A stretch of 64,000 nt of DNA, from NCBI GenBank assembly GCA_039028935.1, contig JBCCHD010000005.1, positions 1-64,000 of the forward strand, in the 5' to 3' direction. This document shows, one piece after another, positions 40,194 through 47,455 of the stretch (the stretch's first letter is position 1; every line of letters begins with the position of its first letter). This DNA is from Pseudomonadota bacterium (GTDB lineage Bacteria; Pseudomonadota; Gammaproteobacteria; Steroidobacterales; SZUA-146). Made by a program: the position numbers and the translations under genes. Under the pieces are notes generated by a model. It did not search any database, was not told the origin of the DNA, and was given only the letters and a program-made list of their open reading frames with translations.

Positions 40194-40556
40194 GGGGGCG
40201 ACCTGGCTTCGACGGGGGTTGCAAAACTTCAAGTGCATGCCGAGGGGTAGATCACCTCGTTAAACCAGCTACAACAACTTATAGTTGCCAACGACGACAA
40301 CTACGCACTAGCTGCTTAAAAACCACGCTTAGTGCCCTCTGACCAGGCTGTGCTTGTGCACTTGGATTCCAGGGGTCATCTTCACAAGATCGCGAGTGAG
40401 GTATGTTCAGGGCCAAGCCGTTAAAACCTAACTGAACTGGCTAGCGGTTTTCCCTGCCCGTCGGGTTGCCGTTAGTAAGAATAAAGACGGAATAAGCATG
40501 TAGAGCTTGGAGTGGAGGATCTTCGGACGCGGGTTCGATTCCCGCCGCCTCCACCA
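40194..40556 (+). ncRNA. ssrA: tmRNA (SsrA)
   Basis: A 363-base one-piece tmRNA. The 5' end GGGGGCG pairs with CGCCTCC before the terminal ACCA, with one G:U pair. The early GGCTTCGACGGGGGTTGC and the T-arm GGTTCGATTCCCGCC are typical. The resume codon is GCC at 40287 and the encoded tag is ANDDNYALAA followed by TAA at 40317; E. coli has ANDENYALAA. It follows smpB and is followed by a terminator. Confidence 0.98.
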
Positions 40557-43729: not shown

Positions 43730-46700
43730 CTACAATGCGCCCGGACCGGGCGGGCTGAGAAAAAACTCGGTCATGATCACATAGTCAAGGAAGTTGACTG
43801 CGCCATCGCCGTTGAGATCGGCATCGGCATCGCTCGTCAAAAACCGTGCTGAGAACAGACTGATATCAATGAAGTTCACGATCTGGTCATTGTTCAAATC
43901 GGGGTCACACGCATTACCAAACCCGTCCCCGTCCGTATCGCGCTGTGGTGTGTTGGGCGACAAGCGGCAGTTATCGCTGGTGTCAACGATGCCGTCGCAA
44001 TCACCATCGATTGCATCCAGGCAACCTGTATAGAGCGCCACACCCGCTCGCGCCTGCTGCGACAGTTGATCGGTCACCCAAGCGTTAAAGGACATGACAC
44101 TGCCGTCAACCGCACCGTTCGCTACGATTGGTGGCAACAACACCGAGACAGTAGCGCCCGCGGGCAATTCGCCGAGCGCCCACTGAATACGCTCGCCCGA
44201 CGTACATGACGTCCCTGGGCAATCACCCGCAAAGTCCGCATTGTTATCGAACAACACGTTGAGATCCGGCGGCATCATCGTGCTGAGCGTTACACCAAAG
44301 CGACTAAACGCATCATTGTTGGTCACGGTGTAGAGAATCGCTAATTCGCGGCCGGGTTCCGCCGATACAGTCAGCGCTTGAGCCGTCACGCTAAGAGGAT
44401 GACCGGTAGCCACCACACTCATTGTTTCCGCTACGGCCGATTCAAACTGCGAATTGGCGTCTATCAATGTCGCCGCGGTTTGTAGGGCCTGACCGTCGAC
44501 GAGCGCTGAGTCCACTGTCACCACTACCTCAACAATCCCCCCTTCTCCGGGAGCGAGATTGCCCAGATCCCACTCGACAACGCCCCCGATAAGCTGGCCG
44601 CCTGCTGTAGCCGAGACAAAGCTCGTGCCCGGCGCAAGCGGTAGTCGCAGCTGACTCGCCAGCACCTGTCCGGCATCCTCACGATAGCCATACGTCACAC
44701 GATATGTGAGCGAACTGCCCGGGGCGACAGGATCCGCACTCGCATCGATCGCGACGTCGTAAACCGTATCATTTTGGATACGCAGCGCAGTGGTACTGCG
44801 CGCATGCGCGCCCAGATCGTCTTCGGCCAACGTATTGATCGTGGTCATCTCGCCACCGACTTGACCGGCGGTCACAAACGAAGGCAGATACACCGTGCGC
44901 GCCTCGCCAGCGCCGATGTCGCCGACGAGCCAGGTAACACGTTCGCCAGCCGTGCAAGTAGACGATCCACAATCGCCGTTAAAATTAGCTTCCGACAGCG
45001 GATTGAGTCCATCGCCATAAATACTGCTCACGTTAACGTTGAACCGCGTAAACGGATCGTTGTTCAGTACGCTAATACGATAGTTGGATAAATCACCGCT
45101 ACGCACCGAATCCGGATTAGCGGTAGTGCTGATTTGCAAGCCCTTCGCGTCGGCAACAATCGTGTGCAGCTCGGCGCGCGACCGCGTCGCCAGATCGCCC
45201 ACCAAACTCATGCGCGCAACCGCTTCGAGTACCTGGTTGGCCGGCGCAGGCGTGTCGACCATCACAGTCGCCGTAAGTCGCCCGCCGTCATTCGGTGTCA
45301 TAAACCCCAGGTTCCAACTGACTACACCGTTGGCATGGGTCGCGCCATTGCTGGCCGACACAAAGGTGGTTCCGTCTGGCAATTCAAGATCCATCGTGTT
45401 TTGAACGACCGACGCCACGTCCTCGCGATAAGCGTATTTAATCGTGTAGGTCAGTACATCTCCCACCGTGACAGGGTCGCGGTCCGCACTCAAAACCATC
45501 TCAAACGGCGAATCGCTGGAAACGCGCAGCGTTTCACCTTTTGACGATTGCAGACCTTGATCATCCTCAACCAGCATCAACAAGGGAATCAGTCGACCCG
45601 ACAGGGCGCCGCTGTTTAGGACTGACGGTAAGTCTACGGTGGTGGCGCTATTGGCCGCCAAATCACCTAACTGCCAGACCACAATCTCACCCGCCGTACA
45701 CGTTGAACTGCCGCAATCACCTTCGAAATTGGCTTCCGAAACCGGATTGAACTCATTGGGATAAATCAACGTGAGCTCGACCCCAAAACGCGTGAACGGA
45801 TCGGTATTGCTCACCACCAATTGATAGTGGTTGCGACTGCTCGGTCGCACAGGGGTCACATTCGATTCCATTGCCACCTGCAATCCTGTCGATGCACCGA
45901 CAATCGTGTTGATCTGTGACAGAGCAAACTCGGCAGGAGTTGTCAGACTTTGAAGGCGCGCGCTGGCTGGCAGCACCGTCGCGTTCGTAAGACCCGTATC
46001 GGTGGTCACATCGATCGTACGGGTACCGCCCTCACCGGGACTCATAAAGCCAAGGTTCCAGGTGACCGTGTTTCCTACGTGCACGCCACCATCTGAGGCC
46101 GCATCGAAGGTTACTTGATCGGGTAATGTGACAACCAATTCGGTGTTGTTCACCGTGGCTGCATCGGCCCGATACGCAAAGTCGATTCGATAAGACAGTT
46201 CAGCGTCGGTCAAGGCAGGCTCTGCGCTGTCGGTAATAATAACCTCATAAAGCGTATCGCTGTTGACGCGAATGACTTCGGTCTGGCGCGTTTGCAATCC
46301 AGCGAGATCGGTCACGGTTAAGTCCAGGTTGATCAACTCGCCTCCGGTCGAGGTGCTGGTCGCCACCACCGGCATTTCGAAACGTTTGCTGCCCCCTGCT
46401 ACGATATCACCGACGGTGAAGGTCATGCGCTCACCGGATGTGCAGGTGGAGCTACCACAGTCTCCCTCGAAATACGCCTCTGAAAGCGGGTTGAGTGAAT
46501 TGGGGTACGCGCCTCGAACATTGACGCCAAAGCGAGTAAATGGATCGTTATTGGTGACGGTCAACACATAACTCAATGGACCGCTGCCTCGGACCTGATC
46601 GCGATTGTTCTCAATCGCCAGTTGTAAACCGGACATGGTTGCAACGCTTGTCGATACACTCGAGGTCAACGCATTCGTCGCATCACCCACTTGCGAGATC

Positions 46701-47455
46701 GTCGCGCTCGCACTCACCACATCCCCCGATTGAGCGCTCGGGTCAATCATCACGTGCACATCGCGCACACCACTGTCACCTGGGCTCAAAAAGCCGAGTG
46801 GCCATTCAACGGTTGAACCGGACAACGTACCGCCATCGCTTGCTGATACGAACGTCACATTGCCCGGTAGAGACAACGCAAGCGTGGAATTGGTGACGCT
46901 TGCCACGTCCGCCAGGAACCCGAAATCGACACGGTAAGTTTGCAACGACCCGGGCGTCGCCGGATCGTGTGTTTCACTCAGCGTGATATCAAAGTTGGTC
47001 ATCGTACGCGCAGTGATCGTGGTCGCGACGCTGGCATCGTCTAATGAACTGTCCGTCACTGAGGCATCAAACTCAATAACCGTGCCGTCGGCGGTCGTCG
47101 AAGTGATATTGGGCGCAATGTGCACCGTCACCGAACCGCCGCTGGGAATCGAGCCGAGGTCCCAGGTGACCAGCTCGCCGGCGGTGCACGTAGAGCTAGG
47201 ACAGTCGCCATCGAAATTGCTCTCGGAGACCGGATTAAGGCCGTTCGGATACGGCATGGTGAGCACCACGTTATTGCGCGCCGCACCATCGGTGTTGCCC
47301 ACCGTAAATTCGACTCGCGCGCGGTCGCCCGTCCGAACTTCATCGACGGTCGTGGCCACGTCGAGCGTCAGCGAGGCCTGCGCACTGTGCGTTACAATGG
47401 CGCTGCTGCCGAACAGCAAAACGATTAGAATAGTGATGTGTGTTGGTGTTTTCAT
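43730..47455 (-). CDS. Large secreted repeat protein (DUF11-like) with TSP3/dockerin-type tail
   Basis: A 1241-residue exported protein. Residues 1-28 are a signal peptide. The bulk is an alternation of two beta-sandwich modules. Module A has the Cys pair GDCxSSTCTxGE at residues 83, 331, 579, 827 and 1077 (first Gly), an almost exact 248-residue period. Module B, DUF11-like, has ASDGG and VxWxLGFxSPGxGG and occurs four times between them. From residue 1144 follow thrombospondin type 3-like calcium motifs (DGDCDG, DTDGDGFGNACD) and two dockerin type I-like loops (DLNNDQIVNFID, DLNGDGAVNFLD). The end is PPGPGAL. Probably a cell-surface or extracellular adhesion/structural protein; no enzyme domain is visible. 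A GGGGGA site precedes the ATG. Divergent from the membrane HTH-TPR gene. Confidence 0.85.
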   Translation of the reverse strand: MKTPTHITILIVLLFGSSAIVTHSAQASLTLDVATTVDEVRTGDRARVEFTVGNTDGAARNNVVLTMPYPNGLNPVSESNFDGDCPSSTCTAGELVTWDLGSIPSGGSVTVHIAPNITSTTADGTVIEFDASVTDSSLDDASVATTITARTMTNFDITLSETHDPATPGSLQTYRVDFGFLADVASVTNSTLALSLPGNVTFVSASDGGTLSGSTVEWPLGFLSPGDSGVRDVHVMIDPSAQSGDVVSASATISQVGDATNALTSSVSTSVATMSGLQLAIENNRDQVRGSGPLSYVLTVTNNDPFTRFGVNVRGAYPNSLNPLSEAYFEGDCGSSTCTSGERMTFTVGDIVAGGSKRFEMPVVATSTSTGGELINLDLTVTDLAGLQTRQTEVIRVNSDTLYEVIITDSAEPALTDAELSYRIDFAYRADAATVNNTELVVTLPDQVTFDAASDGGVHVGNTVTWNLGFMSPGEGGTRTIDVTTDTGLTNATVLPASARLQSLTTPAEFALSQINTIVGASTGLQVAMESNVTPVRPSSRNHYQLVVSNTDPFTRFGVELTLIYPNEFNPVSEANFEGDCGSSTCTAGEIVVWQLGDLAANSATTVDLPSVLNSGALSGRLIPLLMLVEDDQGLQSSKGETLRVSSDSPFEMVLSADRDPVTVGDVLTYTIKYAYREDVASVVQNTMDLELPDGTTFVSASNGATHANGVVSWNLGFMTPNDGGRLTATVMVDTPAPANQVLEAVARMSLVGDLATRSRAELHTIVADAKGLQISTTANPDSVRSGDLSNYRISVLNNDPFTRFNVNVSSIYGDGLNPLSEANFNGDCGSSTCTAGERVTWLVGDIGAGEARTVYLPSFVTAGQVGGEMTTINTLAEDDLGAHARSTTALRIQNDTVYDVAIDASADPVAPGSSLTYRVTYGYREDAGQVLASQLRLPLAPGTSFVSATAGGQLIGGVVEWDLGNLAPGEGGIVEVVVTVDSALVDGQALQTAATLIDANSQFESAVAETMSVVATGHPLSVTAQALTVSAEPGRELAILYTVTNNDAFSRFGVTLSTMMPPDLNVLFDNNADFAGDCPGTSCTSGERIQWALGELPAGATVSVLLPPIVANGAVDGSVMSFNAWVTDQLSQQARAGVALYTGCLDAIDGDCDGIVDTSDNCRLSPNTPQRDTDGDGFGNACDPDLNNDQIVNFIDISLFSARFLTSDADADLNGDGAVNFLDYVIMTEFFLSPPGPGAL

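Follow-up and report, generated by a model that had tools for sequence, protein, structure and literature searches.

The window is a stretch of 64,000 nucleotides from the genome designated G000 (97% complete, 91 contigs). The features of P0001 and of the genes beside it are listed in Table 1. The open reading frame of P0001 starts with ATG, and the motif GDC....CT.GE recurs at residues 83, 331, 579, 827 and 1077, with spacings of 248, 248, 248 and 250, as the original prediction had it. Comparison of P0001 with itself at an offset of 248 residues gives a mean BLOSUM62 score of 1.60 (1.46 at an offset of 496), and 20 shuffled sequences give -0.49 or less. The 248-residue periodicity is thus far above that of shuffled sequence.

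Table 1. Features of the P0001 gene and its neighbours in the window
Feature	Coordinates	Strand	Evidence
P0001 gene, 1241 aa: signal peptide, A-B-A-B-A-B-A-B-A DUF11 chain, TSP3-dockerin-PPGP tail	43730..47455	-	
Putative Sec signal peptide, about residues 1-27, ...SAQA/SLTL	47375..47455	-	By eye
Module A1, DUF11 with Cys-pair hairpin, about residues 29-152	47000..47371	-	
Module B1, DUF11 without Cys pair	46628..46999	-	
Module A2	46256..46627	-	
Module B2	45884..46255	-	
Module A3	45512..45883	-	
Module B3	45140..45511	-	
Module A4	44768..45139	-	
Module B4	44396..44767	-	
Module A5	44027..44395	-	
TSP3 calcium-binding segment, about residues 1145-1183	43907..44023	-	HMM matches to COMP and thrombospondin chains; model
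Dockerin, two F-hands DLNNDQIVNFID and DLNGDGAVNFLD, about residues 1184-1231	43763..43906	-	Dockerin_1 Pfam score; HMM matches; model
PPGPGAL end, residues 1235-1241, putative intramolecular clasp	43733..43753	-	Cys covariation in relatives; conservation
186-aa PEP-CTERM protein, 319 bases downstream of P0001	42851..43411	-	
Divergent TPR gene, beside P0001	47625..49712	+	Syntenic beside the P0001 ortholog in genus-mate G001, 58% identity

Nine stretches of P0001 match DUF11 (PF01345), with a score of 156.8 bits against a Pfam gathering cut-off of 24.6. Identity is 30-49% among the A modules and 33-39% among the B modules. Since all nine match DUF11, and A can be aligned with B along its full extent, the two are not unrelated kinds of module. 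Modules with and without a Cys pair alternate as put forward from the sequence, but A does not form a kind of its own; it too is DUF11, distinguished by an inserted Cys-pair hairpin that B lacks. A structure predicted for just over one A-B unit is almost all beta (mean pLDDT 79.8). In the PDB it matches multi-domain beta-sandwich proteins, among them integrin alpha and RbmA, which supports the proposed extended chain of modules with this fold. At a modest overall pTM of 0.53, the model does not fix the orientation of the modules relative to each other. P0001 is like other DUF11 repeat proteins in that all of its modules are DUF11, but differs in that Cys-pair copies alternate strictly with plain ones, at a fixed period of 248 residues.

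This layout had been thought to be without a described counterpart. Full-length orthologs with the 248-residue period are present in G001 (59% identity) and G030 (43%), and more distant homologs in G009 and G022 have periods of 257 and 260. Judged by these alignments the A-B layout is that of a family, and the claim of uniqueness falls. The TPR gene of the window gave no match to the TPR genes adjoining the G009 and G022 homologs, and synteny is accordingly asserted within the genus only. The 186-aa PEP-CTERM protein is one of 27 PEP-CTERM matches in G000, several of which lie near tail genes. It is not cohesin-like by sequence, and any part that it has in the docking system proposed below is hypothetical. 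The window also contains a tmRNA gene (40194-40556; tag ANDDNYALAA).

The TSP3-dockerin tail

The last 95-97 or so residues of P0001 form a tail in which a TSP3 segment is followed by two dockerin F-hands and PPGP. Sequence and Pfam analysis confirm that the TSP3-like loops, dockerin-like loops and PPGPGAL end are present as predicted. The gathering cut-off of Dockerin type I (PF00404) is narrowly exceeded (23.1 bits versus 22.9), and an HMM of the tail matches dockerin and TSP3 chains, including those of COMP and thrombospondin. Both F-hand calcium motifs are seen across an alignment of 85 tails. The predicted structure of the tail has a pLDDT of 92.9, and its best PDB match is the type II dockerin 2y3n_B (rmsd 1.1 over 51 columns). 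On the model and its PDB matches the tail of P0001 is of true dockerin type, and it is probably dependent on calcium.

Among the tails of G000 a cysteine in loop 1 of F-hand 1 covaries with a cysteine immediately after PGP; 25 tails have both and 34 have neither, the sole exception being one degenerate tail with the post-PGP cysteine only. The trend is the same in loci from elsewhere (9 both, 59 neither, 4 tail-only). We read this as a disulphide bond in a subset of tails, which would set the PGP end against F-hand 1. Because of this covariation PPGP looks like a structural clasp rather than a sorting motif. Intramolecular clasps have been reported for some dockerins, and a PGP end packed on F-hand 1 would resemble these. 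In tails of L020, L027, L029 and L044 a cysteine of the linker co-occurs with a cysteine of F-hand 2 (TACGDVDEDFNGDGVCNF); this second pair suggests another optional disulphide.

The tail is not private to P0001. Searching G000 with the whole of P0001 returns 77 places, nearly all matching its last ~95 residues only, and in a profile search 74 tail matches pass E <= 1e-10; the tail is thus common to about 74 places in the genome. In 61 of 75 ORFs examined it is located at the C-terminus, most of the others being internal, and further sequence follows about 13 of the 75 (for example RHS, DUF1800 and cytochrome-like domains, assigned by eye). The tail is therefore not bound to the C-terminus, as seen in L010, L022, L025, L036, L048, L055 and L065, where an internal copy precedes RHS-like, DUF1800-like, cytochrome-like or other sequence. 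Of the 61 ORFs with a C-terminal tail, at least 53 have a signal-peptide-like start, and most of the remaining eight are either truncated at the edge of the locus or appear, on inspection by eye, to be exported. Among the 25 of 67 cargo families listed are subtilases, sortilin/BNR propellers, FG-GAP and DUF11 proteins, penicillin amidase, ThuA and cytochromes; polysaccharide-degrading cargo may also occur within the 67. Relatives of the tail are found in gammaproteobacterial MAGs, Methylobacter, Methylomonas, Aquabacterium, Sulfuricaulis, Deferrisomatales, a planctomycete and others.

Cohesin-like proteins and the exosortase locus

Profiles built from Pfam cohesin matches in tail-rich relatives were used to search G000 for cohesin-like partners. 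Neither the Pfam cohesin model nor cohesin profile A4 gave a match in G000, so the wider, order-specific profile A5 was needed. This matched a single place (C12:73418-73711, E = 1.4e-4). C12 encodes two proteins of some 200 aa in tandem at this place; both end VPVPAAVWxML...R and both exceed the VPLPA-CTERM (TIGR03370) cut-off (27.9 and 26.7 bits versus 25.35). A third cohesin-like gene lies on C37, and a scan with A5 of 15 G000 regions with PEP-CTERM matches gave no cohesin. The cohesin genes found in G000 are thus three, against about 74 tails, and none adjoins P0001 itself.

The two C12 proteins do not match Pfam cohesin (PF00963) at E <= 10, although their relatives partly do. The Pfam-type cohesin set matches PDB cohesins with E = 1.8e-12, and the new subfamily matches that set at 95% in hhalign (E = 3.6e-8; control 0.2%). 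Compared directly with the PDB the subfamily reaches E = 0.74 only, the top match being a cohesin. This homology at the level of profiles identifies the C12 proteins as likely cohesins. The search for partners suggested in the original prediction thus yielded likely cohesin-type PEP-CTERM proteins, and the anchoring role suggested for the dockerin-type tail is plausible. Two related observations may be recorded here. The cohesin-like VPLPA-CTERM protein at L207:6709-7296 also matches floc_PepA (NF033554; E = 4e-7, under the cut-off). In L126, from a Myxococcales MAG, a 773-aa ORF comprises a cohesin-like domain, a membrane/basic segment, a second signal-like stretch and a TSP3-dockerin tail; the record has masked bases, and the ORF may be two genes or an effect of assembly.

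The exosortase XrtD (TIGR04152) is well above its cut-off in G000 (593.9 bits versus 400, positions 2-486 of 486). Along one strand of C12 the genes include an ATPase with further EPS genes, then XrtD (559 aa), a WecA-like transferase and a PrsT-like TPR lipoprotein; the pair of cohesin-like genes comes next, followed by a tailed 1505-aa subtilase. G030:C111 repeats the order ATPase, PrsT-like, cohesin-CTERM and tailed subtilase. The PrsT-like and ATPase proteins fall slightly under their NCBIfam cut-offs. Cohesin and tail genes are paired on the same strand in G000:C12, G030:C111, G009:C84, G022:C43, G002:C126, G041:C80 and G052:C141; in G009:C84 and G022:C43 the tailed neighbour is the P0001 homolog. 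Cohesin-like genes also lie beside tailed genes of the same strand in Methylobacter, Aquabacterium and Sulfuricaulis. Dockerins of other types, some with a DAR(K/Q)CVxQC end, directly adjoin single-cohesin genes in L167, L168, L172, L189 and L190. Most of these single-cohesin genes have PEP-CTERM ends, and they provide further cohesin-dockerin pairs.

The proposed docking system and its alternatives

The best explanation is that tailed cargo docks on exosortase-anchored cohesins, to which we assign a probability of about 0.6. P0001 would be a secreted surface stalk of nine Ig-like DUF11 beads, ending in a calcium-folded TSP3-dockerin plug stabilized by the packing of the PPGP end against F-hand 1. 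The plug would serve as a docking tag common to the tailed proteins of G000, most of them exported, and would bind the small exported cohesin-like proteins. These have the C-terminal VPLPA/PEP-CTERM signal by which XrtD could sort them to the surface or the exopolysaccharide matrix, so that a few anchored sockets would serve many cargos. The sequences, repeats, Cys covariation, gene distribution, gene pairing, VPLPA tags and XrtD are observed, and the dockerin fold is predicted; physical binding of tail to cohesin, its dependence on calcium and the surface location of the tailed proteins are what we infer.

The distribution of the genes is consistent with docking. The cohesin-like subfamily (three-row profile A7, E <= 1e-3) is present in each of the eight genomes of the same order that have 20 tails or more, and in none of the other 51 (n = 59; Fisher 4.5e-10, or 2.8e-8 without the two training genomes), counts that share ancestry in three families and are not phylogenetically independent. 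XrtD exceeds its cut-off in 9 of 11 tail-bearing relatives and 3 of 48 tail-less ones. In 79 loci fetched by the tail alone, a few of them from the relatives that gave the profile, an eight-row HMM (A8) finds a cohesin-type match in 21, every one on the strand of the tail. Some ten of the matches start 140-234 bases past the tail domain, and a few are part of long or fused ORFs in which no sorting tag is seen. About 0.5 matches would be expected in 79 loci at the gene density of G000, a rough figure that assumes equal density across taxa. The named loci with A8 matches (Methylobacter, Aquabacterium, Sulfuricaulis, Methylomonas and Thiogranum) lie outside the profile-source relatives. Across 185 genomes of the class co-occurrence is weak, with 11 bearing tails, 11 bearing Pfam cohesins and three bearing both; Pfam cohesin is absent from most tail-bearing genomes elsewhere in the class, and the Pfam model also misses the subfamily.

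It is unlikely that the tail is simply a calcium-rigidified cap or spacer against proteolysis, with no partner, and that the gene pairing reflects co-regulation of exported proteins. TSP3 segments and F-hands bind calcium and have a stabilizing effect, and a single type of tail on very different cargo would suit such a role, but neither the same-strand pairing in 21 of 79 loci nor the all-or-none distribution of the subfamily is predicted. Slightly less probable is a different receptor, such as a polysaccharide of the exosortase-linked EPS locus or another protein, with the cohesin-like PEP-CTERM proteins serving other dockerins. The other dockerin types that adjoin cohesin genes in relatives, and the disparity between three cohesin genes and 74 tails, would fit this. 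However, the subfamily tracks the number of tails, and its direct neighbours are PGP-type tails. The notion that PPGPG is a sorting signal, the tail being cleaved at PPGP by an unknown transpeptidase in the manner of PEP-CTERM or MYXO-CTERM, is just as improbable: the tails are mostly C-terminal, number dozens per genome and conserve the PPGP end, but they have neither a transmembrane segment nor a basic end (in P0001 PPGPGAL follows the second F-hand helix), some are internal, the covariation links the tail end to F-hand 1, giving PPGP the behaviour of a clasp, and G000 already has XrtD with its own tag.

Relation to known systems

Docking onto anchored cohesins recalls the type I and II cohesin-dockerin pairs of the cellulosome (Clostridium, Bacteroides cellulosolvens) in having a duplicated F-hand dockerin on many exported proteins and a cohesin-type partner, and 2y3n_B is the nearest fold of the tail. 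It differs in that the G000 cohesin-like proteins are small, with a single cohesin and an exosortase tag, rather than multi-cohesin scaffoldins; in its cargo of proteases, propellers, FG-GAP and DUF11 proteins; and in the TSP3 segment fused ahead of the dockerin. The locus is like known exosortase/PEP-CTERM (XrtD/VPLPA-CTERM, PrsT) systems in that a single EPS locus contains XrtD with its EpsI domain, a PrsT-like TPR protein and PEP-CTERM proteins, but here the PEP-CTERM proteins carry cohesin-like domains and adjoin dockerin-tailed genes. The floc-forming PepA of Aquincola is an example of an exosortase/PEP-CTERM system in which pepA adjoins prsT (PMC9850573).

The function of non-cellulosomal cohesins and dockerins is given as not known in the part of PMC5244752 that cites Peer et al. 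2009. A structural example, found in the PDB match search with the tail model, is the NagJ/NagH pair of C. perfringens (2ozn). The present modules likewise lie outside cellulolysis, but here a concrete partner set, an anchoring route and a genome-wide scale are proposed. No paper combining exosortase/PEP-CTERM with cohesin-dockerin was found in the open-access literature, and an archaeal open-access paper names exosortase and dockerin without linking them; as only the open-access literature is covered, this is weak evidence of novelty.

The data point to docking onto exosortase-anchored cohesins as a hitherto undescribed means by which Gram-negative bacteria keep dozens of proteins on their surface. 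We put at even odds the broader proposition of a general Gram-negative display system, in which single cohesins anchored by exosortase would receive dozens of dockerin-tailed exported proteins. Such a system would have no relation to cellulose breakdown and would extend over Gamma- and Betaproteobacteria and a few further phyla. The finding joins two open questions, the role of dockerins and cohesins outside cellulosomes and that of most PEP-CTERM proteins, and the named gene pair is testable in cultured bacteria (Methylobacter, Methylomonas and Aquabacterium). If true, a function would be assigned both to the dockerins outside cellulosomes and to one class of PEP-CTERM proteins, and dozens of unannotated proteins per genome could be labelled as surface-docked.
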